A stretch of DNA of 64,000 nt. It comes from Azoarcus sp. Aa7. Its GTDB lineage: Bacteria > Pseudomonadota > Gammaproteobacteria > Burkholderiales > Rhodocyclaceae. Each line of letters opens with the position of its first letter. Positions within the stretch are counted from its first letter, which is position 1. Shown here in pieces: positions 7,519 to 56,964 of this stretch. The stretch covers positions 1-64,000 of the forward strand of contig NZ_QVLR01000030.1 in the NCBI RefSeq assembly GCF_014822185.1, given 5' to 3'. The position numbers and the translations under genes were made by a program. The notes beneath the pieces are model-generated. The model was not told the origin of the DNA. It did no database searches and saw only the letters and a list, made by a program, of their open reading frames with translations.

Positions 7519-7942
7519 AGCGAGGACTCCTTGTTCAGTGCGACGAATTGATCGAGCGGGCATCCGGCAGAGGAAGTGATATTTCCGTGTGGCCACTTTG
7601 CGGCGAGTTTTCGTCGCAGTCCCGGATCCCGATTCCTGAATCCAGTCTAATTGCCTGCCCTTTTTCGCACTGCACCGCTTCGAATCAGAAGGGGACTTTG
7701 CCAATTCATTTCCGGCCAGTCCAAAACCCTTGTCCGGCAAGGGATTGCGCGACCCAAGAATGGGCCGCAGCAGCAAGCCCGGCGCGCCCATGGCCTTATC
7801 TGACATTCCTGCGGCCACTTCGGAACTGCCGCCGGACAACACCGCCGGAAATCGGAATCTAGAATCGGCTCAACGATTCGCGGCATGACGGCAATTGCCG
7901 ATTTGCCGGCCGTCTTGATTAATTCCTGATGCGGGGACAGAC
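7519..7942. promoter_or_regulatory. Divergent promoter region between the etfA operon and the acyl-CoA dehydrogenase operon
   Basis: A 424-bp non-coding region with lower GC than its surroundings separates two long divergent operons. A perfect palindrome GGCAATTGCC lies at 7890-7899, close to the plus-strand start. On the minus strand TAGACTGGA occurs at about 7641-7649; the same string sits in the promoter region of the CoA-transferase operon (about 35471-35479). No clear -35 box accompanies it here. The region probably holds both promoters and one or more operators; the exact sites are inferred. Confidence 0.5.
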
Positions 7943-9124: not shown

Positions 9125-9139
9125 CCGGACGGACGCGCG

Positions 9140-40736: not shown

Positions 40737-40770
40737 GAATTCTCCCGATGATTGGATCGAACGGCCCCGC

Positions 40771-41748: not shown

Positions 41749-41969
41749 CGGGGGTCTCCGGAAACAGGGAACATGGCCGCAGTATCAAAGCTGGCCAAGC
41801 CTGCAACATCGTCCCAATGGACTAACGCGTGCGAGGCATCGGGCAACTCCGCGTGCGTAATTCGATTTGGGCCATTTCCGTCAACCGCAACCGTCGTTCG
41901 CTCACGCAGGCAAGCCGCGATCCGTCCACAGGCAGCCAGCAGGGTGTGTTCGAGCAACCCAGGGAATGC

Positions 41970-42007
41970 GTGAAAAAAGCGCTACGAAAACGTACAATGT
42001 TCTGTAC
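41970..42007 (+). promoter_or_regulatory. Promoter and autoregulatory palindrome of the toxin-antitoxin operon
   Basis: GTGAAA (41970-41975), a 17-bp spacer and TACAAT (41993-41998) form a sigma-70-like promoter. The inverted repeat GTACA-N6-TGTAC (41992-42007) overlaps the -10 box, where an antitoxin repressor would bind. The antitoxin start is 28 bp further on. Confidence 0.6.
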
Positions 42008-42034
42008 CTTTTTTGTGCGATTCAGGAGGCCACG

Positions 42035-42325
42035 ATGGCTATCTCCGCAAGCGACATCGTCCCGCTCTCTCACGCCCGGGCCAACTTTTCCGAACTGGCA
42101 GAAGAGGTCAAAGGCGGCGCCGAGAAGATCATCACCAAGAACGGTGAGAGCTACGTCGCCCTGATCGACGCCAACCGTCTGGACTACTACCACCAGCTGG
42201 AGCGTGAGCGGATTCATCTGCTGCTGATCGACGAGGCCGCCAAGGGACTCGACGATGTTGTCGCCGGCAAGGTGAAGGACGCCCGCAGCGTGGTTCAGTC
42301 CATCAAGCGCCGTCGCAGCGTGTGA
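42035..42325 (+). CDS. Phd/YefM-type antitoxin
   Basis: 96 aa from an ATG with GGAGG about 6 bases upstream; longer in-frame starts lie in the promoter region. The Phd/YefM motif is clear: IVPLSHARANFSELAEEVK, then ITKNGESYVALIDANRLDYYHQLE. The N-terminal half would bind the palindrome upstream and the C-terminal half would wrap the toxin encoded 18 bp downstream. GC is lower than in the catabolic genes around it. Confidence 0.88.
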   Translation: MAISASDIVPLSHARANFSELAEEVKGGAEKIITKNGESYVALIDANRLDYYHQLERERIHLLLIDEAAKGLDDVVAGKVKDARSVVQSIKRRRSV

Positions 42326-42343
42326 GTTGCGACGGATCTGCTT

Positions 42344-42733
42344 GTGGCAAGAAAACCGGCCGTCAAACTCACCGCGAACTTCGAGCGCAACCTCGAAGAC
42401 ATCGAGCGCTTCCTGACCGAAGCGGAAGTACCGCAAGCCTTCGACAGCTTGCTGGACGAACTGCTTGAAACGGTGATTCCCAACCTCGAGCGCTACCCGG
42501 ACATGGGGCGCCCCTTCCTGACCCGTCAGCCGCGCTCCGTGGAGGCCACCAATGCGCTGGCAACGCTCCGTGCAAAGTTGTCTGCACTGACAGCCGACAT
42601 GGACGCCCTCCGCGAATACGTCCTCAAGGACTACCTGCTGCTCTACGCACAGGCTGGAGGCGCGATCTACCTGCTGGCCATCCGACACCAGCGACAGCTG
42701 TCGTTCGACTTCGAAGGGCACTGGAGGGCATAG
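42344..42733 (+). CDS. RelE/ParE-type toxin
   Basis: 129 aa, GTG start at 42344. N-terminal KLTANFERNLEDIERFL and the late segment YVLKDYLLLYAQAGGAIYLLAIRHQRQLSFDFEG follow the ParE/RelE plasmid-stabilisation fold (beta strands ending with a basic patch). It is somewhat longer than common RelE toxins (about 95-105 aa) because of the helix around residues 55-85. Co-transcribed with the antitoxin. The molecular target (gyrase or ribosome) is not determinable here. Confidence 0.82.
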   Translation: MARKPAVKLTANFERNLEDIERFLTEAEVPQAFDSLLDELLETVIPNLERYPDMGRPFLTRQPRSVEATNALATLRAKLSALTADMDALREYVLKDYLLLYAQAGGAIYLLAIRHQRQLSFDFEGHWRA

Positions 42734-42867
42734 ACCAAACGGCCGCCCCGCCATGGTCCGATCGGACGAGGCCGCCCCCCGCCGCGGGGTGATAGTGTTG
42801 CGTCCAAAGCGCAAGCCGCATTGCGCCGCGCGACACTTCTCCGACAACCCACGGGAACCGCAACGCC

Positions 42868-44301
42868 ATGACCTCCACGGTAAGCACAGTCGCTGGCCTG
42901 AGCCAGATGCTCTCGCAGCAGAAATCCGCATTCACGGCCGCCGGCCCGGTCGGCGCCGACGAGCGCCGCGCGCGCATCCAGAGCGTGATCGACCTGCTCG
43001 TGAAGCACCACGAAGCCCTCGCGGCGGCGATGGAAGCGGACTTCGGCAACCGGCCGAAGGGCTTCTCGCTGATGAACGACGTGCTCGGCTCGCTCGCGTC
43101 GCTGAAGCACGCGCGCGACCACCTCGAAGCGTGGATGCAGAACGAGAAGCGCGCACCCTTCACGCCCTATGACCACTTCGGCGGTGAAGCCTGGGTGATG
43201 TACCAGCCGAAGGGCTCGATCGGCGTCATCGGCACCTGGAACGCCCCGCTGTTCACGCTCCTGAGCCCGCTCGCCTACGCGCTCGCCGCGGGCAACCGCG
43301 CGATCCTGAAACCCTCCGAAATCACCCCGCGCACCGCAGCAATCGTCGCCGAGGCCTTCGCCGGCCTGATCGACCCGGCCATCGTCGGCGTCGTCACCGG
43401 CGGGCCGGATATCGGCGAAGCCTTCAGCAAGCAGCCCTTCGACCACCTCGTCTTCACCGGCAGCACCGCGGTCGGCCGCGAAGTGATGCGCAACGCGGCT
43501 GAGAACCTCGTACCGGTCACGCTCGAACTCGGCGGCAAGTCGCCGACCATCGTCGCCCGCAGTGCCGATCTCGCCACCGCCGCCTTCCGCATCGCCGCCG
43601 CCAAGGCCGCCAACGGCGGACAGTTGTGCGTGAACCCGGATGTAATCTACGCCCCGCGCGAACGCCTGGAAGACTTCGTCGGCGCCCTCAAGAGCGCCTA
43701 CGCGTCGCTATTCCCGACCATCGCCGACAATCCGGACGTCGTCGCGGTCGTCAATGCGCGCCATCTCGCGCGCGTGGAAGGCTACGTCGACGAAGCCGCC
43801 GCGGCCGGCGCGCGCGTCGAAACCACGCCGGCACCCACCCCAGCCGATCCCGAAAACCGTCGCCGTCCGCTGCGCATCGTCATCGACCCGCCGCGCACGA
43901 CCCGCATCATGCAGGAAGAGATCTTCGGACCCGCCGTGGTCGTGCTGCCTTACGACGACATCGACGCGGTCATCGCCGACATCAACGCCCGCCCCCGTCC
44001 GCTCGCGCTGTACTACTTCGGCGAGGATGCGGCCGAGCAGCAGCGCGTGCTCGAACACACCCTCTCGGGCGGCGTCACGATCAACGAAGCCATGTTCCAC
44101 GCCGCGATGCAGGACGCCCCCTTCGGCGGCGTCGGCGCCTCGGGCATGGGCCACTACCACGGCCGCGAGGGCTTCATCGAGTTCAGCCACGTGCGCACCG
44201 TGTTCAAGGCCCCTGCCCACGACCCGCGCCGCGAATGGGGCACCCTGCCGCCCTACCCCGAGCACCTTCTCGCCGCGATGCAATCCCAGGTCACGCCCTG
44301 A
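42868..44301 (+). CDS. Coniferyl-aldehyde-dehydrogenase-type aldehyde dehydrogenase
   Basis: 477 aa. Closest in appearance to CalB-type coniferyl aldehyde dehydrogenases. NAD-binding and catalytic features: GVIGTWNAPLFTLLSPL, FTGSTAVGREVM, ELGGKSPTIV (catalytic Glu) and NGGQLCVNPDV (catalytic Cys). It oxidises an aliphatic or aromatic aldehyde to the acid. It is followed 37 bp on by a LuxR-type regulator, suggesting local control. About 130 bp separate it from the toxin gene. Confidence 0.87.
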   Translation: MTSTVSTVAGLSQMLSQQKSAFTAAGPVGADERRARIQSVIDLLVKHHEALAAAMEADFGNRPKGFSLMNDVLGSLASLKHARDHLEAWMQNEKRAPFTPYDHFGGEAWVMYQPKGSIGVIGTWNAPLFTLLSPLAYALAAGNRAILKPSEITPRTAAIVAEAFAGLIDPAIVGVVTGGPDIGEAFSKQPFDHLVFTGSTAVGREVMRNAAENLVPVTLELGGKSPTIVARSADLATAAFRIAAAKAANGGQLCVNPDVIYAPRERLEDFVGALKSAYASLFPTIADNPDVVAVVNARHLARVEGYVDEAAAAGARVETTPAPTPADPENRRRPLRIVIDPPRTTRIMQEEIFGPAVVVLPYDDIDAVIADINARPRPLALYYFGEDAAEQQRVLEHTLSGGVTINEAMFHAAMQDAPFGGVGASGMGHYHGREGFIEFSHVRTVFKAPAHDPRREWGTLPPYPEHLLAAMQSQVTP

Positions 44302-44338
44302 CAGCACCGCACCGTAACCCGAGACCGGAGGATTTCCG

Positions 44339-45502
44339 ATGGCACCCGAGACCGACCTCGCAAGCCGATTCGCCGCCTCCGGTCTCGGCGTCGCCGACTA
44401 CGACCACCTGATCCGGCTCGTCTACGAAGGCGTCACCGAGCCGGTGCCCTGGACGCGGCTGCTCGAGTCGCTGCGCAAGCGGCTCGACGCCAACTACGTA
44501 TCGCTGATCCTGCGCCCGCCGACGCCCGAGCACCAGTGGCGCGTCGTCTTCGCCGGCGAAGCCCAGCCGGCGATCGCCTCCACGTACGAGACCTTCTTCT
44601 ACGCGATGGACCCCTTCGTCAATCTGCCCGCCGACCGCATGGTCACGGTCGACGAAGTGATCAACGAGGCGGACTGGCTCAAGAGCGCCATCTACCAGGA
44701 ATTCCTCAAGCCGCTCAACATCCGCTACTACATGGGCGCCGACGTCGGCGGCGGCAACGATGCAATCTGCCGCATCCGCGTCAGCCGTCCGAGCGAGTCA
44801 ACCCCCTTCTCCGAGCACGAGCGCGCCCTCTGCACGCTGCTGCTGCCGCACCTGAAATGCGCCGTGCGCCTGCGCTCCGCGCACGACGCCACCGAGGCCG
44901 AACGCACCGTCTATGCCGGCGCGCTGGAGCGCCTCGCCATCGGCGCCGTCATCCTCGACAAGAAGGGCCGCGTGCTCAAGACCAACCGCGCCGCCGACGA
45001 GATCCTCGCCGAGCGCAACGGGATAAGTCTCGTGCAGGGCGGCCTCCAGGCCTCCTACGGCAGCGAGAACCGCGAGCTGCACCGCCTCATCGAACAGGCC
45101 GTCGCGGGCCACGCCGACCGCGGCCCCGGCGTCGTCGGCGCCATGTCCATCACCCGCACCGCCGGCCACGGCAACCTTGGCATCCTCGTCCGCACCGCGC
45201 CCATCACCGAGTGGTCCGAAACCGCGAACCGCCCCGCCGCCGTCGTCGTCATCCGCGACTCCGAATCCCGCGTGCAGGCCTCGCAAGCGCTGATGAAACG
45301 CCTCTACGGCCTGACCCCGGCCGAATCGACCCTCACGCTGAAGCTCCTCGACGGGCTGACCGTCGACGAAGCGGCGGAAGAACTCTCGATCAGCCGCAAC
45401 ACGGCGCGTTGTCAGTTGCGGGCGATCTTTGCGAAGACGGGGGTGACGCGGCAGACGGAGCTGCTGCGGCTGTTGCTGGGGGGTGTGATTCCGTTAGCTT
45501 GA
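44339..45502 (+). CDS. LuxR-family transcriptional regulator
   Basis: 387 aa. The N-terminal about 300 residues form a sensor-like region with a PAS-like segment (VILDKKGRVLKTNRAADEILAERNG). The C-terminus carries the LuxR helix-turn-helix LTPAESTLTLKLLDGLTVDEAAEELSISRNTAR. Such regulators often control nearby catabolic genes; the aldehyde dehydrogenase immediately upstream is the obvious target. A truncated near-copy of its C-terminal half lies at 47266-47943 on the other side of the flavoprotein gene. Confidence 0.87.
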   Translation: MAPETDLASRFAASGLGVADYDHLIRLVYEGVTEPVPWTRLLESLRKRLDANYVSLILRPPTPEHQWRVVFAGEAQPAIASTYETFFYAMDPFVNLPADRMVTVDEVINEADWLKSAIYQEFLKPLNIRYYMGADVGGGNDAICRIRVSRPSESTPFSEHERALCTLLLPHLKCAVRLRSAHDATEAERTVYAGALERLAIGAVILDKKGRVLKTNRAADEILAERNGISLVQGGLQASYGSENRELHRLIEQAVAGHADRGPGVVGAMSITRTAGHGNLGILVRTAPITEWSETANRPAAVVVIRDSESRVQASQALMKRLYGLTPAESTLTLKLLDGLTVDEAAEELSISRNTARCQLRAIFAKTGVTRQTELLRLLLGGVIPLA

Positions 45503-45833
45503 TGTACCCGAAGTAAATTAAGTTTGCAGGGCGCGACACCCTCCCCTTCAAGGGGGCGGAGGCGGGGGTTCGCGGAGCACCGCTCCGCGCCGCCTCACGC
45601 TCAATCCCGAGCGCGACGCGGTCATCCGCGACCACCTGCATGCTGAAGACAATATGCGGTTAGTCGCATGAATCAGGCGACAACTATCTTGAGGCGCTCC
45701 GGTTGGAAAATCCTGTCGAACGGCACCGGCCTTCCCGCTTAGCCTGACACGCCGCGGCGGCACTCACGAAGAACTAGCCGCCCCTCGACGCGCGGCGTAT
45801 GCTGCGCCCCTTTCCGACGACGGGCAGGCGGCA
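45503..45833. other. Intergenic region with GC-rich hairpins
   Basis: 331 bp without a supported gene. CCTCCCCTTCAAGGGGGCGG and then GCGGAGCACCGCTCCGC, both near 45540-45590, form strong hairpins that may terminate the LuxR transcript. The remainder is AT-richer and shows nothing recognisable. Confidence 0.5.
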
Positions 45834-47039
45834 GTGGCTGAGCAGCATTTCGAAGTGATCGTGATCGGCGCGGGCGCGGCTGGCATGATGTGCGCGGCCC
45901 AGGCCGGGCAACGCGGGCGGCGCGTGCTGCTCATCGATCACGCCGAGCACCTCGCCGAGAAGATCCGCATCTCGGGCGGCGGGCGCTGCAACTTCACCAA
46001 CCGGCGCGTCGGTCCGGAACACTACCTGTCGCAGAATCCGCATTTCGTGCGCTCGGCACTCTCGCGCTACGGCTCCGCCGACTTTATCGCGCTCGTCGAG
46101 CGCTATGGCATCCGCTACCACGAACGCGACCACGGCCAACTGTTCTGCGACGACTCCGCACAGCAGATCATCGACATGCTGCGCGCCGAGTGTGACGCCG
46201 GTGGCGTAGCGTGGGCGATGCCCATGACGGTACAGGCCATCGCGCGCGGCGAGGGCGACACCGGCTTCGTGCTCGACACCGCGCGCGGGCGCCTGCGGTG
46301 CGACAGCCTGGTCGTCGCCACCGGCGGACTGTCTATCCCGAAGATCGGGGCGACGCCGTTCGGCTACCGCATCGCCGAACAGTTCGGCCTACCGATGGTC
46401 GCGCCGCGCCCTGCGCTGGTCCCGCTGACGCTGCCGCCCGAAACCCTTACCCGCTTCGCCGATCTCTCCGGCGCCTCGCTCGACGTCGCCGCGCAGTGCA
46501 ACGGCGCGCGCTTTCGCGAGGCGCTGCTGGTGACACATCGCGGGCTGTCCGGGCCGGTGGTGCTGCAGGTGTCGAACTATTGGCAGGCACAGGCCTACCG
46601 CGACGGCGAGTGGGAGCCGGTCGGCATCGACCTGCTGCCCGACCTCGATGCGGAGGACTGGCTGCTCTCGCACGCCGATGGCAAGGCGCTGCTCGCCAAC
46701 CTGCTCGCCGAACATCTGCCGCGCCGCTTCGCGCATGCGTGGTGCGCGATGCATGGCTGGGAACGGCCATTGAACCGCTTCAGCCACACCGAACTGCGCA
46801 CCATCGCGACCACGCTCGCGAACTGGCAGATCGTCCCATCGGGCACGCAAGGCTACGCCAAGGCGGAAGTCACGCTCGGCGGCGTCGACACGCGCGCGCT
46901 GTCGTCGAAGACGATGGAGGCGACGCGCTGCAAGGGGCTGTTTTTCGTCGGCGAGGTGATGGACGTCACCGGCCATCTCGGCGGCTACAACTTCCAGTGG
47001 GCATGGTCGTCCGGGCACGCTGCCGGACAGTTCGTTTAA
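45834..47039 (+). CDS. BaiN/HI0933-family NAD(P)/FAD-dependent oxidoreductase
   Basis: 401 aa from a GTG (45834). VIVIGAGAAGMMCAAQAG is the FAD dinucleotide-binding motif; KIRISGGGRCNFTN and the C-terminal VGEVMDVTGHLGGYNFQWAWSSGHAAG are the signature of the HI0933/YhiN/BaiN flavoproteins. BaiN reduces steroid enones in gut bacteria; most family members have no known substrate. It sits between the intact LuxR gene and its truncated copy, so its location is probably the result of rearrangement. Confidence 0.9.
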   Translation: MAEQHFEVIVIGAGAAGMMCAAQAGQRGRRVLLIDHAEHLAEKIRISGGGRCNFTNRRVGPEHYLSQNPHFVRSALSRYGSADFIALVERYGIRYHERDHGQLFCDDSAQQIIDMLRAECDAGGVAWAMPMTVQAIARGEGDTGFVLDTARGRLRCDSLVVATGGLSIPKIGATPFGYRIAEQFGLPMVAPRPALVPLTLPPETLTRFADLSGASLDVAAQCNGARFREALLVTHRGLSGPVVLQVSNYWQAQAYRDGEWEPVGIDLLPDLDAEDWLLSHADGKALLANLLAEHLPRRFAHAWCAMHGWERPLNRFSHTELRTIATTLANWQIVPSGTQGYAKAEVTLGGVDTRALSSKTMEATRCKGLFFVGEVMDVTGHLGGYNFQWAWSSGHAAGQFV

Positions 47040-47096
47040 GGGTTACCCTCAAGCCCCGCGAAGCGGGCCCGGATCGCCTCGACGTGCTGGTGGTTC

Positions 47097-47267
47097 CTAA
47101 GAAACACCAGCCGAGCTTGCCTCCTGGAGTGTAAAGCCGAACGCGGCAGCTCTCCGATGCAACTGCTTGAACACCCGAGGTCAATATTGGCGCGCGTATT
47201 GGTCGGCGCCAGGATCTTGGTAGGTCGCGCCGTACCGTTTGGCGGTATAGAACAGCACGGCGATTTT
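47097..47267 (-). pseudogene. Transposase C-terminal remnant
   Basis: On the minus strand one frame reads KIAVLFYTAKRYGATYQDP, a premature TGA after ARQY, then PRVFKQLHRRAAAFGFTL and a TAG at 47097. This pattern (short Tyr-rich strand, then basic RRA-x-x-x-GF-x-L end) is that of IS transposase C-termini; the family was not assigned. It lies exactly at the point where similarity to the LuxR gene begins (about 47280), so it likely marks the recombination site. Confidence 0.55.
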
Positions 47268-47943
47268 GCTCTCTACGCTGCGGTTCCACCACCTCAAATG
47301 CGCCGTGCGCCAGCACTCGGCGCACGACGCCACCGAGGCGGAGCGCAGCGTCTATGCCGGCACCTTGGAGCGCCTCGCGATCGGCGCTGTCATCCTCGAC
47401 AAGAAGGGCCGCGTGCTCAAGACCAACCGCGCCGCCGACGAGATCCTCGCCGAACGCAACCGCATCAACCTCGCGCAAGGCGGCCTCCAGGCCTCCTACG
47501 GCAGCGAGAACCGCGACCTGCACCGCCTCATCGAGCAGGCAGTCGGGGGCCACGCCGACCGCGGCCCGGGAGTGGTCGGCGCCATGTCCATGACCCGCAC
47601 CGCCGGCCACGGCAACCTCGGCATCCTCGTCCGCACCGCGCCCGTCACTGAGTGGTCCGACACCGCGAACCGCCCCGCCGCCGCCGTCGTCATCCGCGAC
47701 TCCGAATCCCGCGTGCAGGCATCCCAAGCGCTAATGAAGCGCCTCTACGGCCTCACCCCCGCCGAATCCACTCTCACGCTGAAGCTCCTCGACGGACTCA
47801 CCGTCGACGAAGCGGCGGAAGAACTGTCCATCAGCCGCAACACGGCGCGGTGTCAGTTGCGGGCGATCTTTGCGAAGACCGGGGTGACGAGGCAGACGGA
47901 GTTGCTAAGGCTGCTGCTGGGGGGTGCAATTCCGCTGGCATGA
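47266..47943 (+). pseudogene. Truncated copy of the LuxR-family regulator
   Basis: About 220 codons nearly identical to residues 168-387 of the LuxR gene at 44339-45502, including LTPAESTLTLKLLDGLTVDEAAEE and the full helix-turn-helix. The sensor N-terminus (about 170 residues) is missing and replaced by a transposase remnant; there is no good start codon or ribosome-binding site. A short DNA-binding product cannot be excluded, but it is best read as a duplication remnant. Confidence 0.8.
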
Positions 47944-48279
47944 TCACCTAGCCGCGGATCGCTGCGCCGTGCGGTTGGACTGGCGTCCCTGCGGCACGCA
48001 GGCGTCCTCCAAACTCCGCAAAGTAAAACATGCGCGCTCGCTATTTTATTATTCGCCTTATCGTAGAATAAAACGTTTGCTTGTTTTTGCTTAGCGCCTT
48101 CGAGCCACGCAGCGCGTTGCCCTTTTCTACAAGCAGCGCTGCCACTCCACCTTCAGATACCAGTCTCCGACCACCTTCCTCCAGAACTTGGACGACCGAC
48201 GGGGTCAACAAGATATGGCCGCATGAGGACGATCGGTTGGAAGGCGGAGAACGTTGGGCGCTCAGGATAGGACGGAACC
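47944..48279. other. AT-rich intergenic region before the ATPase island
   Basis: 336 bp with distinctly lower GC. TTTTATT (48044-48050) and AATAAAA (48067-48073) are an inverted repeat with a 16-bp spacer; a promoter for the island probably lies here or just downstream. No coding frame is supported. Confidence 0.5.
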
Positions 48280-49467
48280 ATGAAAATCGAATCCATACGC
48301 CTGAAGAACTTCAAGGTATTTCGCGACGTGCATCTAAAAGACATCCCGTCTTTCCTGGTCGTCGTCGGTGCCAACGGATCGGGCAAATCGACATTCTTCG
48401 ACGTGTTCGGGTTTTTGCACGACTGCCTGAAAGGCACCGTGCGCCAAGCGCTGGACAAGCGCGGTCGCTTCCGCGAAGTGTTGAGCCGCGGTGCCGATGG
48501 CGACACCATCCTGATCGAGATTCAGTACCGCATGCTGATTACCGGCGTGGAGCGACTGGTGACCTACTCCCTCGAGATCGGTGAACAAGGCGGCTCGCCC
48601 GTCGTGCAACGCGAACTGCTGCGTTACAAGCGGGGACGCTACGGCAGCCCATTCCATTTTCTCGATTTCTCGAACGGTGAAGGCTACGCCATTACCAACG
48701 AGGAAGATTTCAACAAGGCTGACGAAGACCTAGAGCGCGAACTACAAAAGGTCAGCGCCGACAGCCTGGCGATCAAGGGGCTGGGCCAGTTCGAGCGCTT
48801 CAAGGCGGCGAACGCTTTCCGTCAGTTGATCGAGTCCTGGCATGTGTCGGATTTTCATATCAGCGCGGCGCGTGGCCGCAAGGAGGCCGCCGGGGATTCA
48901 GAGCATTTATCGGAGACCGGCGACAATCTACCGCGTGTGGCTCAGTATCTGTTCGAACAGCACCCAGAGACCTTTCACCGCATTCTCGACACCATGGCGC
49001 GACGGGTGCCGGGTGTGGCCTCGGTGGAGCCGCGCCTCATGGACGACGGTTACCTGACCTTGCGCTTTCAGGATGGTTCGTTCAAGACGCCGTTTCTGGA
49101 TCGCTATGTGTCAGACGGCACGATCAAGATGTTCGCCTACCTCGTGCTGCTGCACGACCCCAAGCCACACCCCTTGCTGTGTGTGGAAGAGCCCGAGAAC
49201 CAACTCTATCCACGCCTGATGGGCGAGTTGGCCGAGGAGTTCCGGCTCTACGCCAACCGGGGCGGGCAGGTGCTGGTGTCCACCCACTCGCCGGATTTCC
49301 TGAATGCGACCCGGCTCGAAGAAGTGTGCTGGCTGGTCAAACGTGGAGGTCGCACCGAAATCTGCCGGGCTCGCGAAGATGCGCAGATTGCGGCCTACAT
49401 GGCCGACGGCGACCAAATGGGCTTTCTCTGGAAGCAGGGCTTTTTCGAGGGAGCCGATCCGGAATGA
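48280..49467 (+). CDS. ABC/OLD-like AAA ATPase (defence-island type)
   Basis: 395 aa. MKIESIRLKNFKVFRDV with Walker A GANGSGKST at about residues 30-38; an ABC-signature-like SDGTIKMFAYL around 275; Walker B LLCVEEPENQLYP around 300; and the switch His in STHSPDFLN around 331. This is the RecF/SMC-type ATPase fold of OLD, AriA (PARIS) and AbiL-type proteins, here without an attached nuclease domain. The next gene overlaps by four bases and encodes a Toprim-like protein, so ATPase and nuclease are split over two genes. Codon use and GC are lower than in neighbouring catabolic genes, suggesting transfer. Confidence 0.87.
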   Translation: MKIESIRLKNFKVFRDVHLKDIPSFLVVVGANGSGKSTFFDVFGFLHDCLKGTVRQALDKRGRFREVLSRGADGDTILIEIQYRMLITGVERLVTYSLEIGEQGGSPVVQRELLRYKRGRYGSPFHFLDFSNGEGYAITNEEDFNKADEDLERELQKVSADSLAIKGLGQFERFKAANAFRQLIESWHVSDFHISAARGRKEAAGDSEHLSETGDNLPRVAQYLFEQHPETFHRILDTMARRVPGVASVEPRLMDDGYLTLRFQDGSFKTPFLDRYVSDGTIKMFAYLVLLHDPKPHPLLCVEEPENQLYPRLMGELAEEFRLYANRGGQVLVSTHSPDFLNATRLEEVCWLVKRGGRTEICRAREDAQIAAYMADGDQMGFLWKQGFFEGADPE

Positions 49468-50057
49468 GGGAGCTTGTCTTTCTGCTCGAAGAAGAGTCTG
49501 CGAAGGCGATGCTGGAGGGATTGTTGCCGCGCATCCTGCATGCAGACATCCGGCCCCGCTATATTCCTTTTGAAGGCAAGCAGGACCTTGAGCGGCAGAT
49601 GGTCAAACGCCTTCGTAGCTATGTCAATCCGCATGCACGTTTCATTGTCTTGCGCGATCAGGATAGTGCGCCCGATTGCATGGAACTCAAGGCAAGGCTC
49701 GTTGAGCGCTGCCAGCAAGCCGGGCAGCTGGCAACATCTGTAGTGCGCATTGCCTGCAGGGAACTGGAGTCGTTCTACTTGGCGGATCTGTGCGCGGTCG
49801 AGCAGGCATTGGGCGTCAAGAAACTGGCACGTCAGCAAGGCTCGGCCAAATTTCGTGCTCCGGATCGCCTCGGCAGTCCCAGCAAAGAGCTGGAGACATT
49901 GACCGTAGGCTCATACCAGAAGGTGAGTGGTTCCCGTGTGATTGGGCGATTCCTCGACCCGGACAACGAGCGCTCCCCAAGTTTCAAGAACTTCATCAAG
50001 AGTATTCGGCGCATGGAGAGCGAATTGCTCGCCTTACCGAATGCAGAGGGAACATGA
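49464..50057 (+). CDS. DUF4276 family, Toprim-like protein
   Basis: 197 aa, ATG overlapping the ATPase stop. The N-terminus ELVFLLEEESAKAMLEGLLPR provides the conserved Glu(s) at 9-11, and FIVLRDQDSAPD the DxD at 65/67; these are the catalytic residues of the Toprim fold. RELESFYLADLCAVEQAL in the middle is typical of DUF4276. In OLD, Gabija and PARIS systems a Toprim domain (fused or separate) cuts nucleic acid under control of the ATPase. A nuclease effector role is inferred. Confidence 0.8.
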   Translation: MRELVFLLEEESAKAMLEGLLPRILHADIRPRYIPFEGKQDLERQMVKRLRSYVNPHARFIVLRDQDSAPDCMELKARLVERCQQAGQLATSVVRIACRELESFYLADLCAVEQALGVKKLARQQGSAKFRAPDRLGSPSKELETLTVGSYQKVSGSRVIGRFLDPDNERSPSFKNFIKSIRRMESELLALPNAEGT

Positions 50058-51016
50058 GCGACATCAAACTCTTTCGCCTCACCGCTGGCAAAGCCACCGA
50101 ACTGCAAGGCGACGCCTCCGACCTGGAAAAGCCCCTACAAACCCTGATCGAGGCCAACCTTGAACCCCTGCTCGGCATCCGCTTCCTGGCCACCGAGTAC
50201 TCCACCGGTAAGACCCACGGCGGGCGCATCGACTCTCTAGGCCTAGATGAGAACAACTGCCCGGTGATTCTTGAGTACAAGCGGTCGGTCGGGGAGAACG
50301 TCATCAATCAGGGGCTGTTCTACCTCGACTGGCTGATGGACCACCAGACCGAGTTCAAGCTGCTGGTGATGGACCAGCTTGGCAAGACGGCGGCCGACAC
50401 GATCGATTGGAGCGCACCCCGGCTGGTGTGCATCGCGGCGGACTTCACCAAGTACGACGGGCATGCGGTTCAACAAATCAACCGCAATATCGAACTCATT
50501 CGCTACCGCCGCTTCGGCGAAGAATTGTTGTTGCTCGAACTCGCCAATGCCACGAGCAGTGGCAACGGCAAACCCGCCACCAGCAAGGCAGCCAAGCTGA
50601 CGACGAGCGACGCAAGCCCAGTCAAAGCGGCGCCGCGCGATCGTTCTTTCGCCGAGTGGTTGCCTATGCTTCCCGCCCATCTGACGGAATTGCTGTCATC
50701 ACTGGAGGACTATGTAATGTCCCTCGGCGACGATGTACAACGCAAGGAGTTGCGGTTGTACCTGGCGTTTAAGCGCTTGAAGAACTTCGCCACGGTGGTG
50801 GCACAAAAAAACAGGCTCGTCCTGTATCTGCACCTAAATCCGGCCGATCATATGCCACTCCCCGCCATTGGTCGCGACGTCACGCAACAGGGCCATTGGG
50901 GAACAGGCGACCTAGAGTTGTCGCTGACGTGTCAGGCAGACTTGGAGACGGCGAAACCTCTGATCCTGATGTCTTATCAAGGCCGCGGCACAACGGGGAT
51001 AGTTACAACGAGCTGA
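50054..51016 (+). CDS. PD-(D/E)XK nuclease domain with C-terminal DUF5655
   Basis: 320 aa, ATG overlapping the previous stop. The N-terminal domain resembles NucS/DUF91 endonucleases: Glu33 in TLIEANLEPLLG, Asp60 in HGGRIDSLG, Glu74 and Lys76 in VILEYKRS make up the PD-(D/E)XK site. Residues about 205-310 are DUF5655 (LEDYVMSLGDDVQRKELRLYLAFK...; LELSLTCQADLETAKPLI), a presumed nucleic-acid-binding domain. The polar linker at 170-200 is Ser/Lys/Thr-rich. Third gene of the compact operon; proteins like this also occur alone, so its part in a joint system is inference. Confidence 0.82.
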   Translation: MSDIKLFRLTAGKATELQGDASDLEKPLQTLIEANLEPLLGIRFLATEYSTGKTHGGRIDSLGLDENNCPVILEYKRSVGENVINQGLFYLDWLMDHQTEFKLLVMDQLGKTAADTIDWSAPRLVCIAADFTKYDGHAVQQINRNIELIRYRRFGEELLLLELANATSSGNGKPATSKAAKLTTSDASPVKAAPRDRSFAEWLPMLPAHLTELLSSLEDYVMSLGDDVQRKELRLYLAFKRLKNFATVVAQKNRLVLYLHLNPADHMPLPAIGRDVTQQGHWGTGDLELSLTCQADLETAKPLILMSYQGRGTTGIVTTS

Positions 51017-51067
51017 CGGGAACAGCAGCAGTTTTGAGCGGAGCTGTTGCACGATCAAGATACGGCA

Positions 51068-51104
51068 AAGAGCCGGCGCGTTCATTCCGAACGCACCGGC
51101 TCTT
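51068..51104 (-). terminator. Terminator downstream of etfB
   Basis: AAGAGCCGG-CGCGTTC and GAACGCACCGGCTCTT form a 16-bp stem with a four-base loop; the single mismatch is a G-U pair on the minus-strand RNA. It begins 23 bp after the etfB stop and also lies beyond the end of the plus-strand nuclease gene, so it may serve both. Confidence 0.65.
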
Positions 51105-51126
51105 CCATGCCGAGGGAGTTTCTCCC

Positions 51127-51915
51127 CTACGCAGGCCGAATCTTCTCCAACAACTGACGTGCAATCTCCGCCGCCGAGCCAGTCAGGAACTTGCAGTTCC
51201 CCTGCACCTTCGGGACATACTGCCGCAGCATCACGACCGCCGGCTGAAGCTCCTGCGCGGTAAGCCCCAGCGCCGCCGGGGCGAGTTCGACGGGGCTCAT
51301 CTTGCGCGCAGCCATCTTGGCCTTGGCGGTGGGGAAACGCGGGGTGCCGAGTTCGTTGCTGACGGTGACGACGGCGGGGAGCGGGCCGCGGACGACTTCG
51401 TCGCCGTCGGCGGTGGCGCGGGTGACCGTGACGCTGGTGCCGTTGACCTCCACCGCGCGGGCGAGCGTCGCCGCGGGCAGGCCGAGCTTTTCGGCGAGCA
51501 GCAGGGGGACGACGCCCTGGTCGTCGTCGGAGGCCTGGCGGCCGCAGAGGACGAGGTCGGCGCCGCCGATGCTTTTTACGTAGGCGGCGAGGATGTTGGC
51601 GACGACCTGGCCGTCGGGTTCCGCACCGCCGGGGTCGATCGCGACGATCTCGTCGGCGCCGAGGGCGGCGCAGTGCTTGAGCAGGTCTTTGCGGTCGGTG
51701 CCGATCGTGACGGCGGTGATGGTGCAGGCGACGCCCTGGTCGCGGATGCGCAGCGCGGCTTCCATCGCCTGTTCGTCATAGCCGTTGATGAGGCGCGGGA
51801 TCGCGGCGACTTCGGGCGTGCGGCCGTCGGCGGCGATCTTGAGGTTGCCGGCGAGCGCGTAGTTGTTGACGGCGGCCGGGTCGAGCACTTCCTTCACGCA
51901 TACGACGATTCGCAT
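51127..51915 (-). CDS. etfB: Electron transfer flavoprotein beta subunit
   Basis: 262 aa, normal length. MRIVVCVKEVLDP, the AMP-site region LCGRQASDDDQGVVPLLLAEKLGLP and the ETF-beta signature around VTVSNELGTPRFPTAKAKMAARK are present. It pairs with EtfA, but no etfA lies next to it; the one in the window is at 6550-7518. It follows a 112-aa protein of unknown function and a nitronate-monooxygenase-like gene on the same strand, with a terminator right after it. Confidence 0.94.
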   Translation of the reverse strand: MRIVVCVKEVLDPAAVNNYALAGNLKIAADGRTPEVAAIPRLINGYDEQAMEAALRIRDQGVACTITAVTIGTDRKDLLKHCAALGADEIVAIDPGGAEPDGQVVANILAAYVKSIGGADLVLCGRQASDDDQGVVPLLLAEKLGLPAATLARAVEVNGTSVTVTRATADGDEVVRGPLPAVVTVSNELGTPRFPTAKAKMAARKMSPVELAPAALGLTAQELQPAVVMLRQYVPKVQGNCKFLTGSAAEIARQLLEKIRPA

Positions 51916-51921
51916 AGCGGG

Positions 51922-52260
51922 TCACTCCTGTTCGGGTTGGCGGATGCCGGCGGCGTCGAGGGCGCCGGTCAGGGTGAGGCTTTCCGCATCACACCAGACG
52001 GCGTCATGGGCGAAGCCTTGGGGCTTGCGGGTGAGCTGGGCGAGCAGGTACCAGCGCCACGGATAGGGGCCGAAGTCGCGGTAGGCGCCGGTGAGCGTGC
52101 CGGTGAATTCCTGACGGCCGGCGAACTTGGTGCCCGCAATGGCGCGGCCGCCGTCGCACTCGGCGACGCGGCCGCACATCGCGGTGTCGAAGCCGGGGCT
52201 GAAGCCCGCGTCGGCCGGCGAGTCAGGCAGAAAATCAGGCTGCGAAGCGGTCGAAGACAT
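51922..52260 (-). CDS. Small hypothetical protein
   Basis: 112 aa. The start overlaps the end of the nitronate-monooxygenase-like gene by 26 bp, and the stop is 6 bp before etfB. No known domain is recognised. It contains AMCGRVAECDGGRA early and a YPWRWYLLAQLTRKPQGFAHDAVWC stretch that looks structured; two cysteines near residue 30. Codon use matches the neighbours, which favours a real gene. It may be translated coupled to etfB. Confidence 0.55.
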   Translation of the reverse strand: MSSTASQPDFLPDSPADAGFSPGFDTAMCGRVAECDGGRAIAGTKFAGRQEFTGTLTGAYRDFGPYPWRWYLLAQLTRKPQGFAHDAVWCDAESLTLTGALDAAGIRQPEQE

Positions 52261-53329
52261 CGAGCGCCTCCTCGACGATGTCGGACAGGATCTGGCGGGC
52301 GGGCTTCATCTCGGTGACGTAGTGGATGCCCTGCCCCGCGGCCTCGGTCATCAGGTCCTTGCGCTGGTAGTCGAGCGAGCCCTGGATGTAGTTGGACGAG
52401 AGCATCATCTGCAGCGGCGGCTTGAGGACTTCGGGCGCGGCGTCGCTGCTCCATTCGTTGTGCCACGGGCTGCGCGTGGTGCGCATGGTGTAGCCGGAGA
52501 TGCAGTTGGAGTAGACGGTGTCGTCGGTCTCGGCCTCGATGAGGCGTTCCTTGAGCGGGAGATTCACGTCCGATTCGCGCGACGCGAGCCACAGCGAGCC
52601 GGTCCACACGCCATCCGCGCCGAGCACGAGCGCCGCGGCGAGGTGACGGCCGGTGGTGACACCGCCCGCGGCGATGACCGGCACGCCGGTGCCGCGCGCG
52701 GCATCGACGACCTGCGGCACGATCGAGAAGGTGCCGATGTTGCCGGTGTGGCCGGCCGCGTCGTAGCCCTGCGCGATGATGACGTCGGTGCCGGCGGCGA
52801 GCTGCTTTTTCGCCTGCCTGGGCTTGCCGACGAGGCCCCACACCTGCATGCCGAGCTCGTGCGCACGCTTGAGGAGGAAGGCCGGGGAGCCGAGGCCGGA
52901 GGCGAACACGGGCACGCGCTCGTCGAAGATGACCTCGAGCTGGGCGAGCGCGCGCTTCTGGTCGAGGCCGCCCCAGTGGTGGATATCCGGCGCGATCTTG
53001 GGATCGGGCACGTCATACTTGCGCTTGATCATCTGCTCGAACTCGCGCTGCTCGGGCGGGATCATCGCCAGCAGTTCCTCGACGGTCTTCTCCTCGGGCA
53101 CCGACGACGGCAGCACGAGGTCGATGCCGAAGGGCTTGCCGCCGATGCGTTCGCGGATCCACTTGATGTCCGCGGCGATCTGGTCGGGGGTGTGCAGCGC
53201 CTCGCCGAGCACCGCGAAGCCGCCCGCGTTGATGACGGCGACGGCGACGTCCTTGCAGTGGGTGAAGGCGACGACCGGATACTCGATGCCGAGCTTGTCG
53301 CAGAGTGGGGTGTGCAGGGGGTTGCTCAT
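52235..53329 (-). CDS. Nitronate monooxygenase-like (2-nitropropane dioxygenase family) flavoprotein
   Basis: 364 aa FMN TIM barrel. N-terminus TPLCDKLGIEYPVVAFTH; glycine-rich phosphate site VIIAQGYDAAGHTGNIGTFSIVPQVVDA and PVIAAGGVTTGRHLAAAL. The catalytic His region (AGHTG) is present. Besides nitronate oxidation the family includes IpdC-like CoA-thioester enzymes of steroid ring degradation and enoyl-ACP reductases; the etfB neighbourhood and CoA setting fit such a role better than nitronate detoxification. That is inference. Confidence 0.85.
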   Translation of the reverse strand: MSNPLHTPLCDKLGIEYPVVAFTHCKDVAVAVINAGGFAVLGEALHTPDQIAADIKWIRERIGGKPFGIDLVLPSSVPEEKTVEELLAMIPPEQREFEQMIKRKYDVPDPKIAPDIHHWGGLDQKRALAQLEVIFDERVPVFASGLGSPAFLLKRAHELGMQVWGLVGKPRQAKKQLAAGTDVIIAQGYDAAGHTGNIGTFSIVPQVVDAARGTGVPVIAAGGVTTGRHLAAALVLGADGVWTGSLWLASRESDVNLPLKERLIEAETDDTVYSNCISGYTMRTTRSPWHNEWSSDAAPEVLKPPLQMMLSSNYIQGSLDYQRKDLMTEAAGQGIHYVTEMKPARQILSDIVEEALDVFDRFAA

Positions 53330-53481
53330 CTTGGCTCCTTCGGGAATCGGCGGTGGCCGGCGAGCGACGCCGACCTCGATTTGATTCTATTGAGCGGTGC
53401 CGCGGGCTTCCGGCGCGTTTGATATCCGAAACGGCCCGCGGGGTATCCGTACGTGACAGACGGATGTGCAGCCGGAATTGC

Positions 53482-53600
53482 GTAGGGCGGATGAGCCGAA
53501 GGCGTTATCCGCCGCATGTAGCTCGTGAGCCAAGGGCATGCGGGACGCGGCACGCCACCCATTGCCATGCGGCGGAAGGCGCTTCGCTTTTCCGCCCTAC
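53482..53600. repeat. Palindromic intergenic repeat, copy 2
   Basis: Bounded by GTAGGGCGGATGAGC and TTTTCCGCCCTAC inverted ends, with internal GGCGTTATCCGCCGCATG and CATGCGGCGGAAGGCGC arms; the same element type as at 30332-30418, but with a longer centre. It lies between the nitronate-monooxygenase-like gene and a CoA-transferase stop codon. Confidence 0.8.
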
Positions 53601-53611
53601 GGACGACCCAT

Positions 53612-54844
53612 TCACCCGAACGCTTTCTCCTGACCGAGCGCGTCGATGGTCGCGGCGTCGTAGCCGAGCACCTCGCGCAGCACGGCCTCGCGGTGCTCGC
53701 CGACGGTGGGCGCACGGGTGGGCTCGGGCAGCTCCTCGCCGACGAACTGCACCGGGAAGCCGAGCATGTCGGCACCGTGCGTCTCGTGCGGGATGACCTT
53801 GAAACGCGCCTGGAACTGCGGGTCATCGACGATGTTCTGCGCGGTATTGACCGGGGCGATCGGAGTGTTGGCCTCGACGCCGAAGGCGAGCCACTGTTCG
53901 GTGGTGCGCGTCTTGAAGATGTCGCGCAGGATGACCTGCAGCTCGCGGTTGCCGCGCGCGTGGTCGGCGTACTTCGAGCCGGGCCACTTGTCGAAGAGGT
54001 CCATGCGGCCGACGCCCGCGCAGAAGTTCTTCCAGAAGGCCTGCTCGGAGGCCATGAAGAGCACGTGGCCGTCGGCCGATGCGTAGAGCTGGTAGCGCAC
54101 GCCCTCCTTCATGCCGGCGGTGGCGACCGGGCGGCGCACCCAGTTGTCGGACTTGTTGCCGGTGACGACGTCCTCGGGGCGTGCATAGGCCATGTGGCTT
54201 TCGCTGCGGTACCAGTCGAAGGCGGCGGCGGCGTCGCTTTGCGCGAGTTCCATGAAGGCGCCCTCGCCCGTTTCGCGTGCGCGGATCACTGCGGCGAGCA
54301 CCGCCAGGCCGCCGAACAGCGGCGCGGCGTTGATGCCGATGCCGACGTGTTCGGGGATGTAGCAGAAGCCTTCGTCGTCATACGCGGGCTTCACGATGCC
54401 GGCCCAGGTGTCGTAGGCGATGCCGTGCGAGGGCATGTCCTTGTACGGGCCGCTCATGCCGTAGCCGGAGACGGTGATGAAGACGATCTTCGGGTTGATC
54501 TTGCGCAGGTCCTCGTAGCCGAGGCCGTACTTCGCGAGCGCGCCGGGCTTGGACGCCTCGATCACGACGTCCGCGTCGCGCACGAGGTCGCGGTAGATGC
54601 GGCGCGCGGCCTCGGTCTTGAGGTCGAGCGCGATGCTCTTCTTGCCGCGGTTGAGGTGGTAGTGCATCAGCGACACGCCCTCGATGACCGGCCAGGTCAT
54701 CTCGCGGATGTAGTCGCCGGCCGGCGTTTCGACCTTGATGACTTCGGCGCCGAGATCCGCGAGCGCGGTGGTGATGGCGGCGGGGCCGAGAATCGAGCTT
54801 TCGATGATGCGCAGACTGCCGAGCGGCGGGACGGGCGTATTCAT
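53612..54844 (-). CDS. CaiB/BaiF-type CoA-transferase-like protein without the usual catalytic Asp
   Basis: 410 aa from MNTPVPPLGS at 54844 (GAGGTG upstream; an ATG three codons earlier is too close to that site). Rossmann motif SLRIIESSILGPAAITTALADLGAEVIKVE is clear. At the usual Asp position it reads HVGIGINAAPLFGGLAVLAAV before TGEGAFMEL, with Ile/Asn instead of Asp. It may need a partner subunit or do racemase-like chemistry (SHGIAYD resembles the racemase His region). It is divergent from the acyl-CoA synthetase operon. Confidence 0.82.
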   Translation of the reverse strand: MNTPVPPLGSLRIIESSILGPAAITTALADLGAEVIKVETPAGDYIREMTWPVIEGVSLMHYHLNRGKKSIALDLKTEAARRIYRDLVRDADVVIEASKPGALAKYGLGYEDLRKINPKIVFITVSGYGMSGPYKDMPSHGIAYDTWAGIVKPAYDDEGFCYIPEHVGIGINAAPLFGGLAVLAAVIRARETGEGAFMELAQSDAAAAFDWYRSESHMAYARPEDVVTGNKSDNWVRRPVATAGMKEGVRYQLYASADGHVLFMASEQAFWKNFCAGVGRMDLFDKWPGSKYADHARGNRELQVILRDIFKTRTTEQWLAFGVEANTPIAPVNTAQNIVDDPQFQARFKVIPHETHGADMLGFPVQFVGEELPEPTRAPTVGEHREAVLREVLGYDAATIDALGQEKAFG

Positions 54845-55136
54845 GATGGGCATTCACCTCGTGATCCGGAGCGCTTGTCCGGGGATTGCAAAGGAAGGGC
54901 GCAGCGAGCCGAGCCGTGGCGGATCGGCCGTTGCGATCACGATAGGGAATTGCCGGAAGGGGGTTTCCGGGCTTGCGTTTCTGATCAGGCCATCGGAATT
55001 GCAATTCGGGCCAGTCAAATGTTTATCGGAGATCCATCGCCCAGAATCGCAGCACGATCAATGCGATGCGGCGCTCGGCCCGGTCTCCCGGAAGAGCGTC
55101 GCGAAAACGATCAACGGACAATCCGAAGGAGCTTCG
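54845..55136. promoter_or_regulatory. Divergent intergenic region with a 12-bp palindrome
   Basis: About 290 bp between divergent genes. A perfect palindrome GAATTGCAATTC at 54996-55007 recalls the GGCAATTGCC at 7890-7899 in the other divergent region. TTTATC at about 55022 may be a -10 box for the plus-strand operon. Operator function is inferred. Confidence 0.45.
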
Positions 55137-55445
55137 ATGAAAACCCTGAAAGCCGGAACGCGCCTGAAGAGCGCCGCGTGCGATACCGAAGTGATGGTGA
55201 TCCGCACCCGCCCCGAGCCCGTGCTGCTGTGCTGTGGCGGCATGGAGATGATCGCGATGGACGGCCAGAAGGCGGCTGCCGAGCCGGATGCGGCCTTCGC
55301 GCAAGGCACGCTGGTGGGCAAGCGCTATGTGGATGAGCAGGACACGACTGAACTGCTGTGCACGAAGGGCGGCAAGGGCGGTCTGTCGCTGGAGGGTGCG
55401 ATCCTTGTCGTGAAGCAGGCCAAGGCCCTGCCCTCGTCGGACTGA
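55137..55445 (+). CDS. Small conserved-looking hypothetical protein
   Basis: 102 aa from an ATG with AAGGAG about 7 bases upstream. No domain is recognised. It opens MKTLKAGTRLKSAACDTEVMVI and has Cys at about 14, 32, 33 and 75, including LLCCGG, and ends in a Lys-rich tail. Four bases separate its stop from the acyl-CoA synthetase start, so they are co-transcribed. The cysteines could bind metal; this is a guess from spacing. Confidence 0.65.
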   Translation: MKTLKAGTRLKSAACDTEVMVIRTRPEPVLLCCGGMEMIAMDGQKAAAEPDAAFAQGTLVGKRYVDEQDTTELLCTKGGKGGLSLEGAILVVKQAKALPSSD

Positions 55446-55449
55446 GCCC

Positions 55450-56964
55450 ATGAACATCGTCATGGCCCTGGAGATGGCGGCCGACTGCCATCCCGATCGG
55501 ATCGCCGTCACGTCCGGCACAAAAAGTCTCACCTCCGGGGAGTTGCTGCGCGCGGCGCGCACTGCCGGAGCGGTCGTGCGCAACAGCGGCTGCCGCTACG
55601 TCGGCCTGCTCGACATCAACAGCACCGCGGCGCCGGTGGCGATCTTCGCCGCGGCCTATGCGGGCGTGCCCTACGTGCCGATGAACTACCGGCTGACGCG
55701 CCCGGAGCTGGAGGCGCTGCTCGCCCGCATCGAACCGGCCTTCCTCGTCGCCGCCCCGGCCTACGTCGAGGCGCTGACGATGCCGGCCGGCAACCACGTC
55801 GTAAGCGCCGAGGACTTCCTCGCGCTGGCGCAGGGCGACACCCCACCGGCCACCGAAGCGCCGGGCGAGCCGTCGTCGGTCGCGGTGCAGCTCTTCACCA
55901 GCGGCACCACCGGCGCCCCGAAGGCCGCGGTGCTGCGCCACGAGAACCTGATGAGCTACATCCTCGGCACCGTCGACTTCGCCGGCGCCGACGACGCGGA
56001 TGCCGCGCTGGTCGCGGTGCCCCCGTATCACATCGCCGGCATCTCGGCGGTGCTGAGCTCGACCTATGCCTGCCGACGCATGGTGCAGCTGCCGAACTTC
56101 GACGGCGCGACCTGGCTCGGGCTGTGCCGCGACGAGGGCGTCACCAACGCCTTCGTCGTGCCGACGATGCTCTCGCGCGTGATCGAGCATCTCGACGCCA
56201 CTGGCGAGTCCGGTGCGCTGCCGGCGATGAAGGCGATCGCCTACGGGGGCGGAAAGATGCCGCCGCAGGTGATCGAGAAGGCGATGGCGATCTGGCCCGC
56301 GGTGGATTTCACGAACGCCTATGGGCTCACCGAAACGAGTTCGACGATCTGCCTGCTCGGCCCCGAGGATCACCGCGACGCGTTCGCGAGCAGCGACCCG
56401 GAGGTGCGCCGCCGCCTGCATTCGGTGGGCAAGCCGATCGGCACCGTGGAGATCGAGATCCGCGGCACGAACGGCAAGGCGTTGCCCGCGGGCGAAGTCG
56501 GCGACGTGTTCGTGCGCGGCGGGCAGGTGTCGGGCGAATACCTCGGCGTCGGCAGCCTGCTCGACGCGGACGGTTGGTTCCCGACGCGGGACCGTGGCTT
56601 CCTGGACCGCTACGGTTTCCTCTACCTCGACGGGCGGGCCGACGACGTGATCGTGCGCGGCGGCGAGAACATCTCGCCGGGCGAGATCGAGGACGTGCTG
56701 CGCGAACACCCGGCAGTGTCCGACGTCGCGGTCGTCGCAATGGCGGACGAGCAGTGGGGCGAGGCGGTGGCCGCGGTGGTGGTGCCGCGCGAAGGTACAA
56801 ACGTGGCGGCGAGCGACCTGCAGGACTGGGTGCGGGAACGCCTGCGTTCGTCGCGCGTGCCCGCGGCCATCCGCTTCCGCAACGAACTGCCGTACAACGA
56901 AATGGGCAAGGTGCTGCGGCGCGTGCTGAAGGACGACTTCCGCAGCGCGGCGGTGTCGGCCTGA
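55450..56964 (+). CDS. Acyl-CoA synthetase (adenylate-forming enzyme)
   Basis: 504 aa. P-loop-like motif LFTSGTTGAPKAAVL, AYGLTETSSTI (A5), the hinge Asp region GWFPTRDRGFLDRYG and the C-terminal catalytic Lys in PYNEMGKVLRRVLK. It activates a carboxylic acid through an acyl-AMP and transfers it to CoA. The N-terminal about 100 residues are shorter than in long-chain FadD, consistent with a medium-chain or aromatic acid ligase. In this cluster it may provide the entry CoA-thioester. Followed by an unusual CoA-transferase-like protein. Confidence 0.9.
   Translation: MNIVMALEMAADCHPDRIAVTSGTKSLTSGELLRAARTAGAVVRNSGCRYVGLLDINSTAAPVAIFAAAYAGVPYVPMNYRLTRPELEALLARIEPAFLVAAPAYVEALTMPAGNHVVSAEDFLALAQGDTPPATEAPGEPSSVAVQLFTSGTTGAPKAAVLRHENLMSYILGTVDFAGADDADAALVAVPPYHIAGISAVLSSTYACRRMVQLPNFDGATWLGLCRDEGVTNAFVVPTMLSRVIEHLDATGESGALPAMKAIAYGGGKMPPQVIEKAMAIWPAVDFTNAYGLTETSSTICLLGPEDHRDAFASSDPEVRRRLHSVGKPIGTVEIEIRGTNGKALPAGEVGDVFVRGGQVSGEYLGVGSLLDADGWFPTRDRGFLDRYGFLYLDGRADDVIVRGGENISPGEIEDVLREHPAVSDVAVVAMADEQWGEAVAAVVVPREGTNVAASDLQDWVRERLRSSRVPAAIRFRNELPYNEMGKVLRRVLKDDFRSAAVSA

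Follow-up and report, generated by a model that had tools for sequence, protein, structure and literature searches.

A 64,000-nucleotide stretch of DNA from Azoarcus sp. Aa7 (contig NZ_QVLR01000030.1, positions 1 to 64,000), referred to here as the window, carries a variable island at 47081-51064 (no strand) that contains an operon of three forward-strand genes. Gene A (48280-49467; 395 residues) encodes an OLD-type ABC ATPase, the ATPase subunit of the candidate defence system HEC-01. Gene B (49464-50057; 197 residues) encodes a DUF4276 protein, a Toprim-like putative nuclease and the second HEC-01 subunit. Gene C (50054-51016; 320 residues) encodes a PD-(D/E)XK, NucS-like nuclease with a DUF5655 domain and corresponds to PDC-S18, a single-gene candidate of the PADLOC database. 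The A/B and B/C junctions are both ATGA stop/start overlaps of four bases, as an earlier interpretation of the letters alone (the sequence-only reading) had described. The island is probably a candidate defence module of the two-component HEC-01 type, behind which gene C, an accessory nuclease acquired separately, is translationally coupled; the probability of this reading is put at roughly 0.6.

Gene A contains the motifs GANGSGKST, VEEPEN and STHSPD. In an alignment of ten sequences, the window's included, residues G30, N32, G33, G35 and K36, the EEPEN stretch at 303-307 and H336 are invariant, which bears out the OLD-like Walker A, EEPEN and switch His motifs recognized by the sequence-only reading. 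Pfam assigns gene A to AAA_21 (7.6e-30), with an SMC_N match just under its cut-off, and hhalign aligns it with seven OLD proteins at a probability of 99.5. The PADLOC HEC-01 ATPase model, PDLC04144, is matched with 753.9 bits over residues 1-395 of 395, and gene B matches the HEC-01 model PDLC04143 with 298.6 bits. Like an HEC-01 pair, A and B are an ATPase and a directly adjoining DUF4276 partner on the same strand. The A/B lettering of PADLOC is inconsistent among its HEC-01 models. The sequence-only reading found no named system with this layout; in PADLOC the pair is HEC-01 and the third gene is PDC-S18.

A and B form a conserved, tightly linked pair. A same-strand ATPase adjoins DUF4276 in all 39 of the 39 DUF4276-derived loci examined; the phylum sample gave 29 DUF4276 matches with examined loci, the window aside. 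Starting from the ATPase, DUF4276 is its companion in six of nine loci on viral contigs. Two of the remaining three, L246 and L247, look like copies from one virus, and the third contig ends soon after the ATPase. A start for B is possible at most 60 nucleotides from the stop of A in 42 of 45 pairs, and 13 have the four-base overlap. A-B is thus a conserved two-gene unit. In L246 and L247 (8973-11191) the HEC-01 ATPase without DUF4276 is preceded, with a four-base overlap, by a 343-residue open reading frame (ORF) that has a weak ATPase-profile match. Distant HEC-01-like ATPases are also found on many enterobacterial plasmids (for example NZ_CP084057.1), 163 of the 224 matching records being predicted to be conjugative, and one such plasmid match is listed alongside the BREX gene pglX.

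The Toprim active site consists of a Glu after strand 1 and a DxD motif after strand 3 of an alternating alpha/beta core. Gene B has Glu9/Glu10 and D65xD67, and its residues E9, D65, D67, E100 and E102 are invariant among 34 sequences, the window's included. The predicted structure of gene B, with a predicted local distance difference test (pLDDT) of 96.7 and a predicted template modelling score (pTM) of 0.91, is alternating alpha/beta. In this model E9 is located just past strand 1 (residues 3-8), D65 ends strand 3 (59-65), and E100/E102 follow strand 4. Pfam finds DUF4276 at 9e-13, a sub-threshold Toprim_3 match and no other match at E<=1. The top viral structural match is an RloB-like protein (probability 1.00, E 0.013, TM-score 0.51), and a direct hhalign comparison with one RloB protein gave no match. 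Motifs and model suggest that a Toprim fold of gene B is likely, not proven. The split pair of OLD-like ATPase and Toprim-like protein proposed by the sequence-only reading is supported.

Gene C carries D60 and E74-Y-K76, and D60, E74 and K76 are invariant among 39 sequences, again including the window's. Pfam recognizes DUF5655 at 1.4e-9, and the PADLOC PDC-S18 model PDLC04946 is matched with 465.7 bits over residues 1-313 of 320, nearly the full length. The structural model has a pLDDT of 84.4 and a pTM of 0.57. Its nuclease domain is most similar by Foldseek to EndoMS (1.7e-5) and NucS (2vld, 1.8e-4), with Shedu weaker at 8.4e-3; the DUF5655 half bears a weak likeness to a small YjbR domain (E 0.066). 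Residues D60, E74, K76, Q86 and Y90 align, in a weak match (E 0.29), with D160, E174, K176, Q187 and Y191 of NucS, which according to the available text of PMC7343888 belong to a conserved motif with Y191 as a key active-site residue. By predicted fold and catalytic set, gene C is a PD-(D/E)XK nuclease, so the second, NucS-like nuclease with DUF5655 was correctly recognized from the letters. It shares the fold and the catalytic-motif residues of its nuclease domain with NucS/EndoMS and Shedu, but has a C-terminal DUF5655. Membership in NucS/EndoMS was rejected because the scores are under the curated cut-offs: 21.6 bits versus 24 for Pfam NucS_C and 23.6 versus 216 for PRK04247.

The lineage of gene C often travels in type I restriction operons. 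In loci from named genomes, taken from the best 80 of 525 relatives, a selection that under-samples distant C relatives, an Hsd gene is present within 10 kb of C in 57 of 80, and at least two kinds of Hsd gene in 53. The other sets of C loci gave an Hsd gene in 3/4 (phylum), 4/9 (order), 8/17 (viral) and 17/27 (family). The 80 named loci also contain a Septu PtuA/PtuB pair (7 loci), SoFic (7) and a YhcG nuclease (11), all counted over the whole locus with no distance limit. The profiles for Hsd, PtuA/B, SoFic and YhcG were built from clusters of C-neighbourhood proteins and named after single scanned representatives. A four-base overlap of C with the preceding gene was found in 28 of 79 named loci (L101, whose match starts at residue 49, was excluded), the preceding gene being hsdS in 15, ptuB in 4 and another gene in 9. 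In L102, L109 and L116, C is placed between hsdS and hsdR. According to the accessible part of PMC12255303, defence systems probably recombine into the hsdS-hsdR slot as a hotspot; darTG2 is found there, and so is a gene pair, one member of which is an AAA-like ATPase. The closest companions of the window's C in a tree of 39 C sequences are L061 and L062 (support 100/97), which both belong to restriction operons. In the L061 operon (7389-9987, Zoogloea ramigera), an HEC-03-like ATPase, a 175-residue protein and an RNA ligase (PF09414) stand directly before this closest relative of gene C.

The combination of A-B with C was seen only in the window among the loci examined; each part has a catalogue entry already, so that what looks new is the joining alone. 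A-B is beside C in none of 137 C loci (131 distinct C ends, a few contigs being counted twice), and DUF4276 is found at none of them. No HEC-01 ATPase at E<1e-30 is present in the 80 named loci. L185 and L186 were left outside the 137, and neither has DUF4276 or an HEC-01 ATPase. C is likewise beside HEC-01 in none of 39 HEC-01 loci (36 pairs and 3 lone ATPases), a set different from, and overlapping with, the 39 DUF4276-derived loci used for the adjacency count. The 398 phylum genomes contain C-family matches in 33 and B-family matches in 43 (E<=0.001); about 5 of the 33 C matches are near full length, the others being partial and outside the neighbourhood counts. In 399 order genomes (E cut-off 1e-10) the C family is present in 13 and the B family in 12. 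In both samples the two families occur together only in the window's genome, and gene C is present in 1 of 17 genus genomes. Further trios were absent from the phylum, order, family (C only; 27 regions; E cut-off 1e-30), named-genome and viral-contig samples. The sequence-only reading had named contiguity in other genomes as the test of its proposal, and a conserved new three-gene system is not supported by it, the third gene being beside the first two in 0/137 C and 0/39 HEC-01 loci.

In a tblastn search of plasmids, 45 records match C and 224 match A, these being counts of records and not of neighbourhoods. The 4.9-Mb record NZ_AP026896.1 (Aeromonas caviae) has a relative of A (59.6%) and a relative of C (55.8%) about 1.36 Mb apart, which indicates that both families can share a genome unjoined. 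HEC-01 can itself be found among restriction genes: the gene order is hsdM-hsdS-A-B-hsdR in L249 and also in L180, there with extra intervening ORFs, and in L209 an HsdS-like fragment of 86 residues is directly ahead of A. Because HEC-01 and C each nest in type I operons, such operons are a plausible meeting place, with a joint copy never seen. The window's genome has type I restriction genes of its own, on other contigs.

The island lies between conserved flanks, the gene of an HI0933-like flavoprotein and an ETF-domain gene. The sister genome G009 aligns to 45773-47080 (97%) and to 51065-54357 (94%), and the stretch between these flanks does not align to it, save for a LuxR duplicate that matches elsewhere. 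At this site G009 carries genes for a DDE transposase and for a protein with a match to DUF4238-Pers of PADLOC (L158, 3683-6115). A second genome, G015, has on the ETF side (L159, contig C283, 196-2336) an ATPase and an RloB protein that match AbiLi and AbiLii; its two flanks are on separate contigs. In these three genomes both flank genes match at >=96%, and the cargoes are three different ones, each having a PADLOC match. The other genus genomes have one or neither flank gene at >=96%, or flank genes that are not side by side. Three different cargoes at one site point to a small hotspot. Defence hotspots of 1-5 kb are described, in the available portion of PMC9122126, in phages and satellites; these are likewise small, but no prophage is shown at the window's site.

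The G+C content is 0.598 in the island and 0.568 in the leader in front of gene A (47945-48279, forward strand; the presumed promoter region), versus 0.672 for the whole window. The low G+C content and the AT-rich leader, proposed from the letters, are confirmed, and the acquired nature of the island, proposed likewise, is supported. Outside the island, 7501-8500 (G+C 0.583) is the only 1-kb stretch below 0.60 when the window is scanned in 500-base steps, and it is possibly another acquired segment. A scan of the leader for a sigma-70-type consensus gave no promoter, and nothing in Rfam matched across 40000-56000. A restriction-operon remnant in the leader was looked for with tblastn of 11,880 neighbour ORFs and rejected, the 17 rows at E<=1e-3 (lowest 7.2e-5) being at about chance level.

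The left end of the island is occupied by a partial LuxR/GerE-type gene (47269-47944, forward strand), which is 90.5% identical over 676 bases (blastn) to the LuxR/GerE-type gene at 44828-45503. The two copies stand on either side of the HI0933-like flavoprotein gene, and the GerE match is weak. Half of the "transposase/LuxR scar" of the sequence-only reading is accounted for by this duplicate of the window's own gene. The other half was not found: five ORFs between 46969 and 48581 have no Pfam match at E<=0.01, and the insertion sequence (IS) transposase present at the same site in G009 matched nothing in the window when used as query, other IS families not being separately searched.

The window shares with HEC-01 an A and a B that adjoin on one strand (754 and 299 bits), but the PDC-S18 gene coupled behind them here is present in 0 of 39 other HEC-01 loci. 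Gene C matches PDC-S18 with 466 bits; relatives of that gene are often in type I restriction operons and some are behind Septu, whereas C here is behind HEC-01. In PARIS, as described in the accessible text of PMC12409363, an ATPase hexamer holds AriB, and when phage proteins such as Ocr are sensed AriB is released and cleaves tRNA; OLD, AbiL and MADS are named there as related ATPase/Toprim systems. Like PARIS, in which AriA sets free the Toprim tRNase AriB, the window has an ABC ATPase and, separately, a small Toprim-like protein. AriB is a DUF4435 protein (PMC9122126, available portion), whereas gene B belongs to DUF4276 and has no match to DUF4435 (PF14491), for which reason PARIS membership was rejected. 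Gene A scores 98.1 bits against the AriA model versus 753.9 against that of HEC-01.

OLD/Gabija membership was rejected because the ATPase and the Toprim-like protein are encoded by separate genes and no helicase domain (GajB) is found among the three proteins. In NCBIfam, A is closest to MAD3 and B to MAD4 of MADS, at 130.8 of the 420 bits required and 22.6 of 160, respectively, so MADS membership was rejected as well; no MADS model matched gene C, and the surroundings were not searched for other MADS genes. AbiL/RloAB likewise combines an ATPase with a Toprim-like protein, G015 has an AbiL-like pair at this very site, and the RloB-like protein heads the viral structural matches of gene B. 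AbiL membership was rejected; Pfam shows no RloB match for gene B at E<=1. The available text of PMC12839542 describes nuclease modules, those of the ATPase/Toprim kind included, as backup effectors beside BREX.

What the sequence itself shows is the make-up and order of the operon, the conservation of the active-site residues, the linkage of A and B, the restriction-operon habit of C and the hotspot location; any defence activity, its trigger and substrate, and any cooperation of C with A-B are inferred. By analogy with PARIS, A would be a sensor ATPase that holds B inactive. A would sense a phage product, plausibly a restriction inhibitor; B, once freed, would cut a nucleic acid, either DNA or an RNA such as tRNA, and the infected cell would be stopped. 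C would be an add-on PD-(D/E)XK nuclease whose target is probably DNA, and would supply a further effector that is independent at least in part. A-B might then act as a suicide module, with C as its auxiliary nuclease, and a PARIS-like pair may have been coupled to a restriction-lineage, NucS-like nuclease in a single recent join. In a bolder and tentative version, to which a rather low probability is given, C would be a mobile additional effector, able to attach itself through start/stop coupling to the end of modules as different as type I restriction, Septu and HEC-01. In the window this would give a layered system with joint control of the Toprim-like suicide nuclease and the DNA nuclease, HEC-01 and C acting as one unit when joined.

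Several observations weigh against an HEC-01 module of this kind with a nuclease of restriction origin. The predicted structure of gene B has no match at E<=0.001 either in the PDB or among viral models, hhalign brings its E and DxD into register with the OLD Toprim with a probability of just 18, and Toprim-type Pfam matches are found in at most 2 of 34 gene B family members. No Hsd gene accompanies 23 of the 80 named C loci, about half of which are on stretches shorter than 14 kb and the others on longer ones. Hsd genes are near HEC-01 in 2 of 39 loci, and a restriction-linked trigger for A-B is therefore weakly founded; the enrichment near defence genes expected by the sequence-only reading is clear for C and weaker for HEC-01. 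The HEC candidates reportedly come from a preprint of Payne et al. (2024). A literature search of limited coverage found no paper on DUF4276, PDC-S18 or DUF5655. In the accessible part of PMC12724379, HEC-01 is a single name within a list of predicted systems; several HECs are reported to be active in the available text of PMC12988326, where HEC-06 alone is named. The sequence-only proposal of a defence candidate is partly supported overall, through the PADLOC matches to HEC-01 and PDC-S18 and the defence cargo at the site in sister genomes.

The presence of two ATGA couplings within one operon would also suit a true three-component system, in which A-B could not do without C, for example as a nuclease directed by A, with B as regulator or second effector; the closest relative of C, in the L061 restriction operon, likewise follows a module that contains an ATPase, one of a different kind. 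Such a system is judged quite improbable, because C is absent at the 36 HEC-01 pairs and 3 lone ATPases, A-B is absent at the 137 C loci, and both families meet only in the window's genome among the 398 and 399 sampled genomes. The four-base overlap itself says little on partnership, since C overlaps varied upstream genes in 28 of 79 loci. This habit is consistent with passive co-capture, whereby two unrelated defence cargoes in one hotspot would be co-transcribed by chance, with C acting alone or together with the genome's type I restriction. The cargo that differs among sister genomes, the type I restriction genes elsewhere in the genome and the cataloguing of C as a single-gene candidate argue in the same direction, but the B-C coupling at least places C on the transcript and in the translation of B, and co-capture is held to be a rather unlikely explanation.

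An operon that is not defensive at all, such as a housekeeping or repair cassette of an SMC/RecF-like ATPase and a NucS-like repair nuclease, could be read from the near-threshold SMC_N match of A and from the resemblance of C to a mismatch endonuclease. It is very improbable in view of the patchy distribution, with C in 1 of 17 genus genomes, the defence-type neighbours, the defence-type cargo at the site, and matches to defence models that far exceed those to repair families.

As an HEC-01 module with an accessory nuclease, the island would be an example of defence modules trading parts, in which a gene of restriction-operon lineage has been joined to a PARIS-like pair outside any restriction operon. 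The join sits at a chromosomal site where sister strains have other defence cargo. Should C work as a second effector that moves between modules, such tail genes could be tested as independent weapons or as amplifiers of the module that precedes them.

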